A stretch of DNA of 64,000 nt, taken from Acidimicrobiales bacterium. Lineage in GTDB: Bacteria; Actinomycetota; Acidimicrobiia; Acidimicrobiales; Palsa-688. Positions 4,977 through 64,000 of the stretch are shown here, in pieces. Within the stretch, counting starts at the first letter, position 1; every line of letters begins with the position of its first letter. The notes below the pieces were generated by a model that saw only the letters and a program-made list of their open reading frames with translations, ran no database searches and was not told the origin of the DNA. The stretch is from contig DASUWA010000055.1 of the NCBI GenBank assembly GCA_036378675.1, positions 1 through 64,000 of the forward strand. Reading direction: 5' to 3'. A program made the position numbers and the translations under genes.

Positions 4977-5912
4977 TCATCTTGGGCTCATCCTCGCAAC
5001 CAGCGCCCGGTCGCGGCCGGCGAGATCCTGGACGATATGTGCGTGCTCGAATCCGAGCCCGCGCGCTGATTCGATCGCACGTTCACATTGATGAGGAGCG
5101 ATCTCGATCACGGCGGATCCCCGAGGGCTCAGCCAGCCGGCAGCACCTGCGAGTATCGACTCGATCCCTTCCAGACCGGTCGGCCCCGACGCGAGTGCTG
5201 TGGTCGGCTCCCAATCGCGGATGACCGGGTCGAGCAGTCCCATCTCGGCGGTGGACACGTACGGCGGGTTCGAGATCACCAGATCGACCCGACCTCTCAG
5301 CTCCTCCGGCAACGCGGACCACCACTCTCCATGAGCAAATCGAACGCGCGTTGCCCTGAGGCCCCCTAGCCCAGCCAGGTTCGCCGAGGCGACGTCGAGG
5401 GCTTCGCGCGACTGATCTGTCGCCCATACCTCTACTCCGTGCCGCTCCGCCGCGATCGACAGCGCGATAGCGCCCGAACCGGTCCCGAGGTCGACCGCCA
5501 ACAGGGAGCGTTTCGGGTCGCTGGCTCGGGTCAGATCGAGCTCGACGAGACCCGCCTCGACCACTTGCTCCGTTTCGGGCCTCGGAATCAACACCCTTCG
5601 GTCCACCATCAGGTCCAGGGTCCGGAAACTCCAGTGCCCCAATACGTACTGGAGGGGCTCCCCCGCCGCGCGCCGCTCGAGCATCGAGGTGAAGCGCGCC
5701 CTTGCCGCGTCCGCAACACTCGGCCCTTCTCTGGACAGCTCCGGCCAGGAGAAGCCCGAGGCCTCCTCGACCAGCCAGCGCGCCTCGACATCGTTGGCCA
5801 GTCGCCGGCGCGCCTCCTCGTAGAGGACCCGCCACGTCTCCCGGGGCGGCTCGCTCAGCGGCGTCGTAGGGGTCCGGCCCGCCGGTGCGATCGGGCTCGG
5901 AACGCTGGTCAT
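4977..5912 (-). CDS. prmC: peptide chain release factor N5-glutamine methyltransferase
   Basis: Methylates the GGQ glutamine of release factors RF1 and RF2. N-terminal helical substrate-binding domain (residues 20-110), then a Rossmann methyltransferase domain with the SAM motif VDLGTGSGAIALS near 142 and the catalytic NPPY motif (LVISNPPYVS) near 210. Its start overlaps the prfA stop by 4 bases (ATGA), so enzyme and substrate are translationally coupled. Length 311 is slightly above the usual 280 because of an N-terminal Pro-rich extension. Confidence 0.95.
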   Translation of the reverse strand: MTSVPSPIAPAGRTPTTPLSEPPRETWRVLYEEARRRLANDVEARWLVEEASGFSWPELSREGPSVADAARARFTSMLERRAAGEPLQYVLGHWSFRTLDLMVDRRVLIPRPETEQVVEAGLVELDLTRASDPKRSLLAVDLGTGSGAIALSIAAERHGVEVWATDQSREALDVASANLAGLGGLRATRVRFAHGEWWSALPEELRGRVDLVISNPPYVSTAEMGLLDPVIRDWEPTTALASGPTGLEGIESILAGAAGWLSPRGSAVIEIAPHQCERAIESARGLGFEHAHIVQDLAGRDRALVARMSPR

Positions 5913-6997
5913 CCTGCGGCGAACGCGGGGTCTTCGCCCGCCCCGGCGAGCTGTGCGGCCCTCTCGTCCGCCATGAGCGCGTCGACGATCTCGTCGAGCT
6001 CGCCCATCATGATCTTGTCGAGCTTGTACAAGGTCAGGCCGATGCGGTGATCGGTGACCCGGTTCTCCTTGTAGTTGTAGGTGCGGATCTTCTCGGACCG
6101 GCCGCCCCCTCCGATCTGGCTGCGTCTGGCGCTGGACAGCTCGGCGGACTGCCGGTCCTGCTCGGCCTTGAGCAAACGGGCTCGCAGCACCTGCATCGCC
6201 TTCGCCCGGTTCTGGATCTGGCTCTTCTCGTCCTGCATCGCCACCACGATCCCGGTCGGAAGGTGGGTGATCCGCACGGCCGAGTCGGTGGTGTTCACCG
6301 ACTGGCCCCCTGGCCCGGTCGAGCGGTAGACGTCGATCTTCAGGTCCTTCTCTTCGATCTGCACGTCGACTTCCTCTGCCTCGGGCAACACGGTGACCGT
6401 CGCCGAAGACGTGTGTACCCGGCCTTGCGACTCGGTCACCGGGACACGCTGCACCCGATGCGGGCCCCCTTCGTATTTCAGATGCGACCAGGCCGTGTCG
6501 CCCTTGACCACGAACGTCACCTGATTGAACCCACCCATGTCCGACGGGTCGGTCGAGAGGACCTCCAGTCCGAGCCCTTTCCGCTCGGCGTACCGCGTGT
6601 ACATCTCGTAGAGATCCCGGGCGAACAGGTTGGCCTCCTCGCCACCCTCGGCCCCCCTGATCTCCACGATCACGTTCTTGCCGTCGTTCGGGTCCTTCGG
6701 AAGCAGCAACAACTTGAGCCGCTCCTCCAGGTCCGCGATCCGAGACTCGGACTCGGCGATCTCCGCCCGCAGCATGTCGCGGTCAGCCCCGTCGGCTTCG
6801 GCGAGCATCTCCCTCGCCGCGTCGAGATCGCCGGCCGCGGAGCGATAGTCCCTGAGCGCCTCCACGATCGGTTCCAGCTCCTTGTGCCGCCTCGAGACGT
6901 CCCTCAGCCGGCGCTGGTCCGAGATGACGGCCGGATCCGAGAGCTGCGCGAGCACGACTTCGTACTCACGTTCCAGGTTCTCGAGACGATCCAGCAC
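5909..6997 (-). CDS. prfA: peptide chain release factor 1
   Basis: RF1 reads UAA and UAG and triggers peptide release. The canonical start is GTG at 6997-6995 (VLDRLENLEREYE), giving 362 residues. The GGQ loop (STGPGGQSVNTTDSAV) that enters the peptidyl-transferase centre and the RF1-type codon recognition region are present, followed by QIGGGGRSEKIRTYNYKENRVTDHR. Minus-strand TACGCT (7011-7006) lies 8 bases before this GTG and could drive a near-leaderless message. The frame stays open for 53 more codons upstream, to an ATG at 7156, adding a winged-helix-like segment (separate entry). Confidence 0.96.
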   Translation of the reverse strand: MLDRLENLEREYEVVLAQLSDPAVISDQRRLRDVSRRHKELEPIVEALRDYRSAAGDLDAAREMLAEADGADRDMLRAEIAESESRIADLEERLKLLLLPKDPNDGKNVIVEIRGAEGGEEANLFARDLYEMYTRYAERKGLGLEVLSTDPSDMGGFNQVTFVVKGDTAWSHLKYEGGPHRVQRVPVTESQGRVHTSSATVTVLPEAEEVDVQIEEKDLKIDVYRSTGPGGQSVNTTDSAVRITHLPTGIVVAMQDEKSQIQNRAKAMQVLRARLLKAEQDRQSAELSSARRSQIGGGGRSEKIRTYNYKENRVTDHRIGLTLYKLDKIMMGELDEIVDALMADERAAQLAGAGEDPAFAAG

Positions 6998-7156
6998 GAT
7001 CCACCAGCGTACCGGTGGGTCGCGCGGCGCCCGTCGTAGGACACCTTGGGATAGGAGGCCATGGAACCGGCCGGAGGTCACGCCGGCCTGACGCAGCTGC
7101 GCCCTGCTGATGACACCGCCCTGGCCCGAGGCAACGGTTACCCACTGTTGATGCAT
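6998..7156 (-). other. AbiEi-type winged-helix segment fused in frame ahead of prfA
   Basis: These 53 codons join prfA without a stop. Residues about 7-45 match the start of the AbiEi antitoxin winged helix: a VASGQGGVISRAQLRQAGV helix-turn followed by a LLSQGVLRRAP wing. It stops where that domain's RVHRGVYA strand would be. Either the remnant of an AbiEi gene whose 3' end was deleted into prfA, or a real N-terminal extension of RF1. ATG 7156-7154 has TAATAT exactly 6 bases upstream, so a leaderless full-length fusion could be expressed. Confidence 0.6.
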
Positions 7157-7162
7157 TTCATG

Positions 7163-7168
7163 ATATTA
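7163..7168 (-). promoter_or_regulatory. -10 element for the wHTH-prfA reading frame
   Basis: Minus-strand TAATAT, 6 bases before the ATG at 7156, the spacing seen at other presumed leaderless starts in this window. It is back to back with the plus-strand TACACT at 7191. Confidence 0.5.
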
Positions 7169-7190
7169 CAGCCGGACCACCTCCTCCGCA

Positions 7191-7196
7191 TACACT
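7191..7196 (+). promoter_or_regulatory. -10 element of a leaderless methyltransferase gene
   Basis: TACACT ends 7 bases before the GTG at 7204. No Shine-Dalgarno precedes that GTG. Confidence 0.5.
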
Positions 7197-7203
7197 CACC
7201 GCA

Positions 7204-8061
7204 GTGGCCTCGGACAACGCCCAAGACGCCGAGAAGGGGATGGATCTCAACCGCCGGATGTGGGACGAACGGGTGCCAATCCACGTCCGCTCCGAGTTCT
7301 ACGACGTCGACGGCTTCAAGGCCGGCCGACCAAAACTGGAGCCGTTCGAGATCGAAGAGCTCGGGCCGCTCGGAGGTTTACGGCTGGCGCATCTGCAATG
7401 CCACTTCGGTCTCGACACCCTCGATCTGGCGAGGCTCCACCCGACGCTCACCGCTGTGGGGCTCGACTTCTCTCAGCCCGCGATCGAAACCGCCCGCGGC
7501 CTCGCCGCCGAGCTCGATCTCGCCGACCGAGCCACGTTCGTCCAGGCCAACGTGTACGACGCGCCCGAGGTTCTCGGCGCCGGCGAGTTCGACGTCATCT
7601 ACACCGGTAAAGGCGCGCTCAACTGGCTTCCCTACATAGACCGTTGGGCTGCGATCTGCGCCAGGCTCCTGAAGCCGGGTGGATGGCTCTACGTGTGCGA
7701 GTACCACCCGGTCGCATGGGTCTTCGACGACAAGGAACCGGTAGTCAAGTACGACTACTTTTCGGTCGCTCCGTTTGTCGACGACAGCCCAGGTACCTAC
7801 GCGGACAGGAACGCCGCCACCGAACACAACACTTGCTACGAATGGCAGCACCCGATCTCGCAAGTGATCAACGAAGTGCTCAACGCCGGGTTCGACTTGA
7901 GGTTCGTAAACGAATGGGACTGGTGCCACTCGGATCTCGGCGGATGGTTGATCAGGGGAAAGGACGGGCGCTACCGGTGGCCGCCCCCCGGGCGGCTGCC
8001 CCTGATGTACTCGCTCAAGGCACGCCGTCGGGCAGAGCCTCCCAATCCCGCGGAACGGTGA
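7204..8061 (+). CDS. class I SAM-dependent methyltransferase
   Basis: Predicted cytoplasmic small-molecule methyltransferase of unknown substrate, 285 residues. The Rossmann core includes LRLAHLQCHFGLDTLDLARL (motif I; the usual E/D-x-G-x-G is here LQCHFGLDT), TAVGLDFSQPAIE (motif II), FDVIYTGKGALNWLP and LLKPGGWLYVCEYHP. The motif I variant with CHFGxDT is typical of a group of actinobacterial methyltransferases. Leaderless GTG start at 7204. An internal ATG at 7240 is an alternative. Its 3' end overlaps the convergent unknown gene by 47 bases. Confidence 0.85.
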   Translation: MASDNAQDAEKGMDLNRRMWDERVPIHVRSEFYDVDGFKAGRPKLEPFEIEELGPLGGLRLAHLQCHFGLDTLDLARLHPTLTAVGLDFSQPAIETARGLAAELDLADRATFVQANVYDAPEVLGAGEFDVIYTGKGALNWLPYIDRWAAICARLLKPGGWLYVCEYHPVAWVFDDKEPVVKYDYFSVAPFVDDSPGTYADRNAATEHNTCYEWQHPISQVINEVLNAGFDLRFVNEWDWCHSDLGGWLIRGKDGRYRWPPPGRLPLMYSLKARRRAEPPNPAER

Positions 8062-8944
8062 CGACTTCCGCGGGCCGGGCAAGGGCCGCGGCCAGCCGTC
8101 GGTTGACCGGCGCATCGTCTCCGTGGGGCACAGCGAGGATCAGACGACCGGCCGGGCGATAGAGGACCCTGCAGTCTGCAGCCGTCGGTACCAGGTCGAG
8201 GTCGATCCCGACCGAGCACACAACTACGACGGGGTCCCCGCCGGCCAGAACACCGACGCAGGGAGCCGCACCGGCCTCGGGCAGGTCGAACCACGGCATG
8301 GGGGGAGCTACGACCGTCAAAACATCGGCCCCGACGAGCGAGGGGCGGGCACAGACCACTGCCCGCAACCACCGCGATCGGGCGAGCGTGTTGGCAGGGT
8401 GTCGTGTGACGCCGGGCCGGCGCCGGGCGCGAACTGCTGCGGCGGCTTCGTCAAGCGCCGCACCGATGTCTTCGCCCGGCCGCATTTCCAGCCGGGCGTT
8501 GCGGTCGTGCCTGCCGACCCCAACCACCAGGTCTCCGCCGATCACCCGGGCCACCTCTAGCCCGAGCACCTCACCCCGGAGCACCCCGTGCTCGAATACC
8601 GGTTCGATTCCGTGCGCCGCCAGGAGCCCGACGTATTCCGCGTCGCCGCTGTCGCCGGCGACCTCGGAAATGTCGGGCACCCCCGCCGGCGCCGACCGCT
8701 CGATCTCACGCCCGGACAACGTCCACACCCCCGGCGGAGAGGCCATCTCCTCCGCACGCCGGGCGATCACGCCTGCAGCGCCGGGCACGGCCTCCTCTAC
8801 GAGCACATCCAGAGACGCCGCGCCCCGGCTGTCCGCCAACGCCAGCGCCGGTCCGAATCGTGCCACCTCGCCGTCATCGATGAGCACCCACATCGCGCAA
8901 CGCTCGCCCGGCGAGACCAGCGCGGCGCCCCCTACGAACGCCAC
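8015..8944 (-). CDS. conserved protein of unknown function between rpmE and prfA
   Basis: No family recognised. The protein is mixed alpha/beta with several hydrophobic beta-strands (VLGLEVARVIGGDLVVGVG, VLTVVAPP, PVVVVCSVGIDLDLVPTAA) and no signal peptide or membrane helix. Such a gene next to rpmE is often seen in related actinobacteria (recollection, not checked here). Start uncertain: GTG at 8944-8942 is the first conventional start after rpmE, with GGTGA just upstream. Protein-like sequence continues upstream (LRAAKLRALVGQHWDKD) towards a CTG at 9025-9023. The end overlaps the convergent methyltransferase gene. Confidence 0.6.
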   Translation of the reverse strand: MAFVGGAALVSPGERCAMWVLIDDGEVARFGPALALADSRGAASLDVLVEEAVPGAAGVIARRAEEMASPPGVWTLSGREIERSAPAGVPDISEVAGDSGDAEYVGLLAAHGIEPVFEHGVLRGEVLGLEVARVIGGDLVVGVGRHDRNARLEMRPGEDIGAALDEAAAAVRARRRPGVTRHPANTLARSRWLRAVVCARPSLVGADVLTVVAPPMPWFDLPEAGAAPCVGVLAGGDPVVVVCSVGIDLDLVPTAADCRVLYRPAGRLILAVPHGDDAPVNRRLAAALARPAEVVTVPRDWEALPDGVP

Positions 8945-61137: not shown

Positions 61138-62199
61138 ATGAGACGCACGGCCAAGTTGGCCATTCTCGGGGCAAGCGTGGCGGCCGTTGCAGCAGCCGCA
61201 ATCGCACCGGCCATGGCCTCCGTCAACGTCCAGTTGACCACCAGTTCCGGTACCAGAACGTTGAACCTCTATCAGCCGGATGGCACAACGCCTCTGACAA
61301 GTTCCGACCTGTCCTCTGGCGCCAGCAACTTCCTCGCCCAGGTCACCGACAGCACCTATTCGAACAAGGGCTTCAACGTGCAGGCGACCATGTCCAACCT
61401 GTACCAGTGGTCCGCCAGCAACCCCGCCAACGGTGGTTACACCTGCTCGTCGATGGTGCCGTCCTCGGCGATCAGCCTGTCCTCCCCGGCGAGTCTCTTC
61501 ACTCTCGGCGGGGTGAGCGCAAACCTGACGCCGGTCTTCCAGCTCTCCGGGATCCTCGACAGCTCCGTCATTCCGCTTCTGGGGCTGAACACTGTCAACT
61601 TCGGCACCTTGTCGCCGCCCGCCACCGTGAACGGGCTGCTCCCTTCAACCCCGCTGACACAGTCGCAGCTGACCGGCAGCAACGTGACCAACCTGTTCGG
61701 CTCGACGCTGAACGGCGTCCTGAACAAGCTCCCACTCAACCTGGCGAGCAACACGATCGGCGGCAGCTTCGCGAGCCCGGATGTCCATCCAACGTGTGAC
61801 TTGGCGGCCGCAGGTGCGACACCAGTCCAGATCATGGACTGGGCGGCGGATCCCGCCGGCGTGCTCGCCGATGTGAAGAGCCTCATCACGGGGGTAACCG
61901 GCGCTGCTCCGAGTCTCACCACCCTCATCAACGACGGTTACCTGACTTCGGCTCAGGTGTCGACGGCTTTGCAGGGCGTACCCAGTCTTGTGAGTGATCT
62001 CGGTGTCCTTGGTATCACCAACAACCTCACGACCATCGAGAACACCCTGACCGCTTCGATCAGCAACGTGACCACCCTTGCGAACTCACTCGTGCAGTCA
62101 GGTTCCTACACCTCGAGCCCGACACTGTCGGTGAACACCTCGGGGATACCTGCCGGCACCTACAAGGGCGTGATGACCGTCACGCTGCTCGACCAGTAG
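61138..62199 (+). CDS. secreted WxL-like surface protein
   Basis: 353 residues. Signal peptide ending AIAPAMASV near residue 27. The mature part is Ser/Thr/Asn-rich and predicted all-beta, with GFNVQATMSNLYQW near residue 80 resembling the first WxL strand and the end VNTSGIPAGTYKGVMTVTLLDQ resembling the WxL finish IPAGTY-x-LTxTL. Two cysteines (YTCSS, PTCDL) may form a disulfide. AGGGGG lies about 13 bases before the ATG. First gene of a three-gene surface operon. Function unknown. Confidence 0.7.
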   Translation: MRRTAKLAILGASVAAVAAAAIAPAMASVNVQLTTSSGTRTLNLYQPDGTTPLTSSDLSSGASNFLAQVTDSTYSNKGFNVQATMSNLYQWSASNPANGGYTCSSMVPSSAISLSSPASLFTLGGVSANLTPVFQLSGILDSSVIPLLGLNTVNFGTLSPPATVNGLLPSTPLTQSQLTGSNVTNLFGSTLNGVLNKLPLNLASNTIGGSFASPDVHPTCDLAAAGATPVQIMDWAADPAGVLADVKSLITGVTGAAPSLTTLINDGYLTSAQVSTALQGVPSLVSDLGVLGITNNLTTIENTLTASISNVTTLANSLVQSGSYTSSPTLSVNTSGIPAGTYKGVMTVTLLDQ

Positions 62200-62203
62200 G
62201 CAC

Positions 62204-62857
62204 ATGAAGACGAGGATCCGAATCCTCGTTGTGGCAGTAATCGCAGCTGCCGGCGCGCTCACGATGAGCGCGCCGGCGCATGCGGTCCAGACCACGACCT
62301 GGGGAATCACCGCTGCGCCGAACGGCAGTGGGCAGAGGACTTCACTCTCCCATCCCGCCGACGGCTCCACCGTCCATGACGCGGTGATCGTGTACAACCG
62401 GACTGCTAAGCCGATCACGATTCACCTGTACGTACTCGGGACCAACTACGCCAACGGTTCTTACCAATTCACTAAGCCGACAACCGGGCTTGGAGCAGCA
62501 ACCAGCCTTAGGCAAAGCACCGTCCAACTTCGGCCGTACCAGGAACTGCGTGTGCCTGTAACGATCCGCACGCCCCGGGGCGTCAAGTCGACGACGCTCG
62601 CCGGCATAGGTGCCGAGGCTGCGGGCGTCAACAACGGCGACTTGACCATCATGGAGCAGCTCGTGGTCCTCGTGAAGGCCACCCCGAGCAACCACCTAAT
62701 TCCTCCGGCCATCACCAAGGACCTGTTCCCCTGGGCGCTGATCGCCATCGCTTTGATTGCCGTGTCCGGCGGCTTTGCCGAGCGGGAGCGTCGGAAGAGC
62801 AAGAACGCCGGCACAGAGCTGCGCCGTCCACCGGTTCCAGCAATGGGGCCCTCATGA
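62204..62857 (+). CDS. DUF916-like membrane-anchored surface protein
   Basis: 217 residues. Signal peptide (ILVVAVIAAAGALTMSAPAHA), a beta domain like the WxL-associated peptidoglycan-binding DUF916 (TTWGITAAPNGSG, VHDAVIVYNRTAKPITIHLYV, LRPYQELRVPVTIRTPRGVK), then one C-terminal helix (DLFPWALIAIALIAVSGGF) and a basic tail ERERRKSK. Thus membrane-anchored with the beta domain outside. Starts 4 bases after the WxL-like gene and overlaps the LPLTG gene by ATGA. Confidence 0.75.
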   Translation: MKTRIRILVVAVIAAAGALTMSAPAHAVQTTTWGITAAPNGSGQRTSLSHPADGSTVHDAVIVYNRTAKPITIHLYVLGTNYANGSYQFTKPTTGLGAATSLRQSTVQLRPYQELRVPVTIRTPRGVKSTTLAGIGAEAAGVNNGDLTIMEQLVVLVKATPSNHLIPPAITKDLFPWALIAIALIAVSGGFAERERRKSKNAGTELRRPPVPAMGPS

Positions 62858-63135
62858 CGGCATATGTTGCGCAGGTCGCTCCGGGTCAGGGCCCGGTATC
62901 AGTCAGCATGACCATCAGTGGTTCAAGTCCTACGACGACCGTCCCGACAGCTACACCTCCGGGGCCGACAAGCCCGGGTGTCTCGACGTCCCCGCCGCAC
63001 AAGCCGTTGCCTCTGACGGGAGCACCGGTGCTGGCGGGTGTCGACCTTGCTCTACTGCTTGCGGTTGCTGGGGCAACTTTCGTGACCGTGGCCAACCGGA
63101 TGGTCAGCCGGACCGCCGTCAGGCCAGGCTCCTAA
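62854..63135 (+). CDS. small LPxTG-motif protein
   Basis: 93 residues. The C-terminus is a classic sortase sorting signal: KPLPLTGAPV, a hydrophobic stretch AGVDLALLLAVAGATFVTVA, then Arg residues. The N-terminal 58 residues are Thr/Pro/Ser-rich (TTTVPTATPPGPTSPGVS) after a short beta-like MTAYVAQVAPGQGPVSVSM. No N-terminal signal peptide is visible, which is odd for a sortase substrate. ATGA-coupled to the DUF916-like gene. The window contains no sortase gene. Confidence 0.72.
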   Translation: MTAYVAQVAPGQGPVSVSMTISGSSPTTTVPTATPPGPTSPGVSTSPPHKPLPLTGAPVLAGVDLALLLAVAGATFVTVANRMVSRTAVRPGS

Positions 63136-63176
63136 CTCGGGGCCTGGCCTTGTCTGCCCGCTAGGGAGTCGGGCAG
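63121..63176. terminator. two hairpins between convergent gene ends
   Basis: AGGCCAGGC (63121-63129) pairs with GCCTGGCCT (63142-63150), 9 perfect bp around the LPLTG stop. CTGCCCG (63154-63160) pairs with CGGGCAG (63170-63176), followed by GTTT. Together they suit bidirectional termination between the surface operon and the peptidase gene. Confidence 0.6.
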
Positions 63177-63997
63177 GTTTGGGCGTAGGCGCAGTCGTTG
63201 AACGACTGACCATCCGCCGCGAGCGGCGATGGGGTCGCCTCGTTTATCAATCCCGGCGACAGGATCACGGTTGTCGGATTTCCTTCGGCGATGGTCTGCG
63301 TGGTGCCTGCGGTGAAGCTATTGGTCGGTCCGAAATGCACGGTGCCGACGGGAGCCAACAACGTCTGCAACACCACCAGGGTCGGGGCCTCGAGGATCCA
63401 CTCCGCCGAGGATCGTGAGGAGCTGTACGGGACGGTTTTCGAAAAGTTCCACTTCCCAGAATCGACCACGGAGATATTCCAGTTCGAGCCCGAAGCCTGA
63501 GTGATGTCTACGCTGACCTGATCACCCGGCGTGACAGTGCAGTTTGGGTCCCCGGCGCAATTCGTGAGTTGCGTCTCACCGTCCGGAAGCAGTTCATACC
63601 ACGCGAAATATTGCGGACCGAGGACCGGGTTGTCGGGCAGCGATTGCTCGGAGATGCCGGCCTGGATCAGGTCGGTCGAACCCGGCACGAAGCCGCCGAT
63701 ACCAGCCCAGGTCGCGGCGAACCCGGGAGGAACGAGGCCAGCTGCAGGCACCGTGAACGTAGATGAGACTCCGGTTACCGGAGCTGAGGGGGTCACTGCA
63801 TATCCGGACCAGTTCAGGCTGTTGACCGTGTCGGCCCGCATGGGAAGGAGGCTGTGGGACTTCGCTCGGATCATGACTCCGGTCAGAGCCGACGTCGGGC
63901 GGCCACTGGCCGACACCTTCGTCATCCCTCCACTCGCCACCACCAAACCTGCAAGTCCGACAGCAACGACGATGAGCTTGGACGCTCGAACCCGCAT
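63161..63997 (-). CDS. secreted G1-family glutamic peptidase (eqolisin-like)
   Basis: 278 residues from ATG 63997, with a signal peptide ending near VSASG (residue 32). The mature part has the G1 pattern: SLNWSGYAV, VSSTFTVPA, ATWAGIGGFV, DLIQAGISEQ (catalytic Gln), PQYFAWYELLP, PGDQVSVDIT and SSAEWILEAPT (catalytic Glu). One Cys pair TNCAGDPNCT and a final YAQTCPTP. Likely an acid-active extracellular protease. A TTG at 64000 is the alternative start; the gene otherwise ends inside the window. Confidence 0.85.
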   Translation of the reverse strand: MRVRASKLIVVAVGLAGLVVASGGMTKVSASGRPTSALTGVMIRAKSHSLLPMRADTVNSLNWSGYAVTPSAPVTGVSSTFTVPAAGLVPPGFAATWAGIGGFVPGSTDLIQAGISEQSLPDNPVLGPQYFAWYELLPDGETQLTNCAGDPNCTVTPGDQVSVDITQASGSNWNISVVDSGKWNFSKTVPYSSSRSSAEWILEAPTLVVLQTLLAPVGTVHFGPTNSFTAGTTQTIAEGNPTTVILSPGLINEATPSPLAADGQSFNDCAYAQTCPTP

Positions 63998-64000
63998 CAA

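Follow-up and report, generated by a model that had tools for sequence, protein, structure and literature searches.

Do WxL surface complexes, to our knowledge reported almost exclusively in Bacilli, have a counterpart in Actinomycetota, and if so, how could the very small LPxTG protein of such a set contribute to it? We address this question for a three-gene set (the trio) of an Acidimicrobiales bacterium, found in a 64,000-nucleotide stretch of DNA, hereafter the window, which comprises bases 1-64000 of the 135-kb contig DASUWA010000055.1 (assembly GCA_036378675.1; genome of 4.1 Mb). We consider the trio, with moderate confidence, to be a Csc/WxL surface-complex module in divergent, actinobacterial form, in which a DUF916-like protein (P2) would bind a WxL-like protein (P1) and a small LPxTG protein (P3) would tether P1 to the wall by a beta strand. 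What the tiny LPxTG protein does has been asked since 2006 (PMC1534035), and a reduced WxL version in another phylum, together with the N-terminal copying reported below, provides a concrete and testable mechanism of wall tethering.

Open reading frame (ORF) calls and translations place all three genes on the + strand, exactly where an initial annotation made from the sequence alone had put them, with P1 at 61138-62199, P2 at 62204-62857 and P3 at 62854-63135. P1 and P2 are separated by a 4-nt gap and P2 and P3 share a 4-nt ATGA overlap, forming a tight operon. Relatives of P1 were found in 3/198 genomes of the order, in 3/396 genomes of a phylum sample, the window's own among them, and on five contigs of an 85,000-genome set, two of which had already been found in the smaller samples, amounting to nine distinct trio loci in Actinomycetota with the window included. 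In 9/9 loci a P2-type gene follows P1 on the same strand and a small protein with an LPxTG-like motif and a transmembrane (TM) helix adjoins, so that the three genes are conserved together as a unit, as in Csc/WxL clusters; a lack of such joint conservation would, by the annotation's own terms, have refuted its reading. The small gene precedes P1 in eight loci and follows P2 in the window; since its position differs yet it always adjoins, it has been moved but retained. The trio is rare and patchy, with a single copy in the window's genome, where a count of paralogous loci returned one further, separate WxL-like/WxLIP pair, and each trio locus holds one P1-type gene, not a small and a large WxL protein.

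Single-sequence scans of P1, P2 and P3 against Pfam and NCBIfam gave no matches above threshold, and the relationships emerge from profiles. P2 (217 residues) starts with a Sec-type signal peptide, continues with a DUF916-like (peptidoglycan-binding-domain-like) immunoglobulin (Ig) domain at 62285-62683, and ends with one TM helix (62723-62779) and a basic tail, which are conserved in the alignment. Searching the PDB with a profile of the nine P2 relatives, we obtained EfmWxLIP1 as the best chain (9i25_C, 9i1y_A; E 1e-4 over the DUF916 part), and hhalign against Firmicutes DUF916/DUF3324 proteins gave an alignment over the first domain (E 4.2e-7, probability 93%). As a single sequence, the window's P2 remains below the Pfam gathering threshold for PF06030, which is reached sub-threshold by 3/9 P2 relatives. 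These profile comparisons show P2 to be homologous to DUF916. The annotated DUF916-like protein with a C-terminal anchor therefore stands, but P2 leaves no room for the second domain, DUF3324, the TM helix following straight after the first.

P1 (353 residues) is, as annotated, a secreted beta-rich protein, opening with a Sec-type signal peptide (residues 1-27, 61138-61218, cleavage near AMA-S as read from the sequence). The two WxL motifs have counterparts in which the tryptophans are replaced, in line with the earlier remark that a tryptophan motif is not evident: motif 1, DSTYSNKGFNVQATM (61348-61392), has Phe for Trp (GFNV), is conserved in the family and is placed by hhalign onto the DxRGT-GWxL region of WxL, while motif 2 at the C-terminus, GTYKGVMTVTLLDQ (62155-62196), has Val for Trp in the alignment (MTVTL). 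Pfam WxL was touched by one P1 relative (E 0.0036, sub-threshold), and direct hhalign comparisons of P1 with Firmicutes WxL gave E 0.003-0.02, the alignment at E 0.003 falling on the DxRGT-GW-L motif. The link is carried by nine actinobacterial WxL-like sequences encoded ahead of DUF916 genes: profile-profile comparison matched P1 with its insert removed to this set at E 3.8e-8, and the set to Firmicutes WxL at E 9.5e-9, with reversed-P1 controls at E 0.09-0.56. Because of this two-step chain and its clean controls, the assignment of P1 to the WxL-type domain is supported at the profile level, with the two Trp changed to Phe and Val and the motifs separated by some 200 additional residues. The annotated likeness to a WxL trio is thereby borne out, P2 being related to DUF916 and P1 to WxL via actinobacterial intermediates.

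The structural evidence on P1 is less definite. An AlphaFold2 (AF2) model built from six sequences has a core of residues 30-117 and 320-353 (predicted local distance difference test, pLDDT, 60-79), while the insert between the motif strands (about residues 118-316, 61489-62085) is variable in the alignment and is modelled with low confidence as partly helical (pLDDT mostly <50). A PDB sequence search with P1 returned nothing relevant. The comparison of predicted folds suggested by the annotation was accordingly answered in part: P2 is tied to DUF916 by profiles, but for the weak P1 model Foldseek gave no match at E <0.001 and VIA-align reached Z <=6.8 (integrin leg domains, the GH123 N-terminal domain, donor-strand pilins and TLP-1a), the WxL chain 9i25_A, which is retrievable with the Firmicutes profile, being absent among these matches. 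Such matches speak neither for nor against a WxL topology of P1. As a separate observation, the P1 model aligns to the GH123 N-terminal domain with Z 6.6 (2.5 A, 99 residues), and the corresponding family PF22680 shows weak matches in 3/9 P1 relatives (best E 0.075).

P3 (93 residues; equivalents in all nine loci, six of which were aligned) consists of a predicted exposed beta strand PVSVSMTIS (62893-62919), a Pro/Thr-rich linker, the sorting motif LPLTG (63007-63021), a TM helix (63028-63093) and a basic tail with Arg residues. The motif reads LPRTG in three relatives (G007, G771 and G656), LPFTG in two (BP_196 and BP_193), LPTTG in G135, LAHTG in G091 and LSYTG in RYN_161. The window's genome carries five sortase genes (PF04203, above cut-off), so that both an LPLTG-TM-Arg sorting signal and sortases are present, as expected of a sortase substrate. 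The small LPxTG protein of the initial annotation is thus recovered in its motif, helix and basic residues, but without a signal peptide, position 62854 being the first start past a stop in this frame. The signal peptide is likewise absent from the small protein in 8/9 loci, the window included, and present in G771 (L040), where the strand PLPVIVEV lies directly after the cleavage site and would therefore sit outside the cell. A P[VI]x[VLI]x[VI] pattern, picked post hoc with the data already seen, occurs in 5/8 non-redundant P3 peptides versus 0.11 expected from shuffling.

Mature P1 opens with the same kind of strand, SVNVQLTTSS (61219-61248; AF2 strand at residues 31-35), which P3 possibly mimics. 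With the P1 N-terminus cut at a position anchored on the invariant Arg of the alignment, P3 resembles this N-terminus more than the rest of P1 across the actinobacterial trios (Fisher p about 1.7e-5) and more than shuffled P3 does (p about 0.002), and a control comparison of P3 with the P2 N-terminus gave no similarity (p 0.3). A mixed P1/P3 alignment was discarded, its P3 rows being misplaced. In G135 (L034 5599-6801, the same as L016), the LPTTG protein and P1 share a single open frame uninterrupted by a stop codon, and a signal peptidase could separate the two.

Upon examining csc loci of Firmicutes from food, soil and gut plasmids, with eight CscD/WxL pairs, we observed that mature CscD, the small LPxTG protein, copies at its N-terminus the start of the mature WxL protein encoded next to it, for example TEVRSVETEGTVSFT / DEVRNVTTDGTIEFT, and likewise TEVRSVETEGTVSFTGVYE / DEVRNVTTDGTIEFTANED, QDVRQVETNGTIGF / NEVRDVTTDGKIEF and DAEYDSNGVTAFY / DTDYTSNGAVEFI. 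Copying was noted in L045, L047, L049, L050, L051 and L055, and one of the eight pairs, L046, shows no likeness by the measure used. The likeness is significant against other windows of the WxL proteins (Fisher p 3e-8) and against shuffles (5e-8), and pairs from the same locus are more alike than permuted pairs (p 0.0003); as the loci include relatives of one another, these p values overstate significance. For Siezen et al. (2006, PMC1534035) the CscD multiple alignment was 'not informative', and their proposal went no further than 'as yet unknown interactions'. In a published AlphaFold model, a WxLIP strand fills a gap of WxL beside its N-terminus and completes the sandwich (Hassan 2023, PMC10599100), and the WxL N-terminal strand is predicted to be able to rearrange (Hassan et al., PMC9772566). 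The CscD-WxL likeness, the actinobacterial likeness and these predictions together suggest strand complementation as the common mode of contact. A link between the small LPxTG protein and the WxL N-terminal strand was not found in the literature searched, many subscription papers, preprints and the description of 9i25 being outside that search.

A mechanism consistent with these observations would run as follows. P1 would be exported and fold as a WxL-type beta-sandwich, with the large insert probably forming the displayed part. P2 would be exported and remain membrane-bound through its C-terminal helix, and its DUF916-like Ig domain may receive P1, fill or guard the P1 gap, and bind and stabilise P1 at the membrane-wall interface, in the manner proposed for WxLIP and WxL. 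P3 would insert N-out by its single helix, a sortase would cut its LPxTG motif and the remaining peptide of 20-50 residues would be joined to peptidoglycan, from where the strand near its N-terminus could capture P1, either by replacing P1's own N-terminal strand or by pairing beside it. P1 would thereby be displayed on the wall, and P1 molecules might also chain. In a wider form, which we put forward only tentatively, the WxL/DUF916/small-LPxTG loci of Firmicutes and Actinobacteria would constitute one donor-strand assembly pathway of single-membrane bacteria. The membrane-bound Ig-domain protein, WxLIP, would act in it as a chaperone that donates a strand, WxL-type subunits would be linked by exchange of N-terminal strands, and a terminal donor strand, the small LPxTG protein, would fix the chain to peptidoglycan.

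Several results weigh against tethering of a WxL-type P1 by P3. Among actinobacteria the strand likeness between P3 and P1 is not specific to the locus (p 0.25), fails to reach significance when the window pair is taken by itself (p 0.2) and is missing from L017 and L036. When signal peptides were first cut automatically, the P1 segment tested lay beyond the strand and p was only 0.04-0.1. The naturally fused P3-P1 frame of L034 yielded no usable AF2 model (mean pLDDT 40.6). The export of P3 is uncertain in the absence of a signal peptide, the direct comparison of P1 with Firmicutes WxL is weak (E about 0.02) with both Trp missing, and AF2 modelled P1 poorly overall (mean pLDDT 48.7). P2 alone could instead hold P1, its DUF916 domain giving the completing strand as in the predicted WxLIP-WxL structure (PMC10599100), and P3 would then be a small wall peptide or spacer in its own right, making no contact with P1. 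The weakness of the P3-P1 similarity in the window pair fits such an arrangement, but P3 adjoins in 9/9 loci despite the changed gene order and the CscD-WxL likeness at the N-terminus is strong in Firmicutes, and we regard it as unlikely.

The fate of P3 itself could also differ, with the protein remaining an unsorted, N-out single-pass membrane tether whose LPxTG-like motif is left uncut. The missing signal peptide in 8/9 loci and the degenerate motifs of some of them (LAHTG, LSYTG) would suit this, yet the succession of motif, TM helix and basic tail has the full architecture of a sorting signal, the genome encodes five sortases and one relative does possess a signal peptide, which together give an unsorted P3 a low probability. 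Even less probable, in our assessment, is that P1 belongs to the generic Ig-like or pilin-like beta-sandwiches, whether TasA-like or as a donor-strand fibre subunit, with no WxL descent and a likeness to WxL loci that is convergent. The best neighbours of the weak P1 model, at Z of about 5-6.8, do include the donor-strand pilins CfaB, CooA, CsuA/B and EcpA along with TLP-1a and the GH123 N-terminal domain, but Z <8 may reflect only a common arrangement, the profile chain leads to WxL with clean reversed controls, and a DUF916-like partner is present. In donor-strand assembled fibres an incomplete Ig fold is completed by the N-terminal strand of a neighbour; for such an arrangement in the trio, the structural matches of P1 are no more than middling and the strand mimicry is suggestive.

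We compared the favoured reading, a divergent Csc/WxL variant, with the known systems. The cscA-D clusters of Lactobacillales and Bacillales (Siezen 2006, PMC1534035) share with the trio an operon of an exported WxL-type protein, a DUF916 protein with a TM helix and a very small LPxTG protein, whereas the trio, from another phylum, has no Trp-x-Leu motifs, one WxL-type protein per locus with an insert of about 200 residues, no DUF3324 domain and, in 8/9 loci, no signal peptide on the LPxTG protein; in the window P1 and P2 carry signal peptides and P3 does not. Because it misses the Trp motifs, DUF3324, the two WxL proteins and the signal peptide of the LPxTG protein, we class the trio as a divergent variant and not as a plain member of the Csc/WxL clusters. 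P2 shares with WxLIP (DUF916, DUF3324 and TM; Hassan 2023, PMC10599100; PDB 9i1y, 9i25) the DUF916-like Ig domain and the C-terminal TM helix, but has a single Ig domain in its 217 residues and no host-binding domain. P3 resembles the CscD proteins in its very short length, LPxTG and TM helix, Pro-rich linker and partner-like N-terminal strand, and differs from them in lacking a signal peptide and in a PVxVxV-like strand, in contrast to EVR-V-T-GT-FT-like strands in Firmicutes. Finally, actinobacterial WxL-like/DUF916 loci (for example that on contig C62 of the same genome, and L018-L023) have the same two families side by side and bridge P1 to WxL; unlike the trio, they encode a full-length two-domain WxLIP, retain a DxR(G/D)-WT motif, and no small LPxTG protein was noticed adjoining them.

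Additional loci were observed beside these. The second, more conventional WxL-type locus of the same genome lies on contig C62 (L031, G000:C62 12000-26000, at 5207-8838 on the - strand) and encodes a 180-residue WxL-like protein, a 348-residue two-domain WxLIP-like protein and a 372-residue protein passing the PF06030 cut-off. At the order level, L018, L019 and L021 present a recurrent four-gene cluster of a PstS-like secreted protein, a large WxL-like protein, a WxLIP-like protein and a TM protein, the last carrying the conserved motif CGNxARRGSxDC and, for the L018 copy scanned, matching nothing in Pfam. Near the G091 trio, L017 (2477-4718 and 12978-14001) contains a SipW-like signal peptidase and small secreted proteins as well as a separate WxL-like/WxLIP pair. 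In the window, the trio is flanked by a divergent pyrE-like gene on one side and by a convergent gene on the other (63161-64000, - strand, continuing past the window edge), which encodes a secreted Peptidase A4/G1 protein of the eqolisin type (PF01828, E 3e-17).
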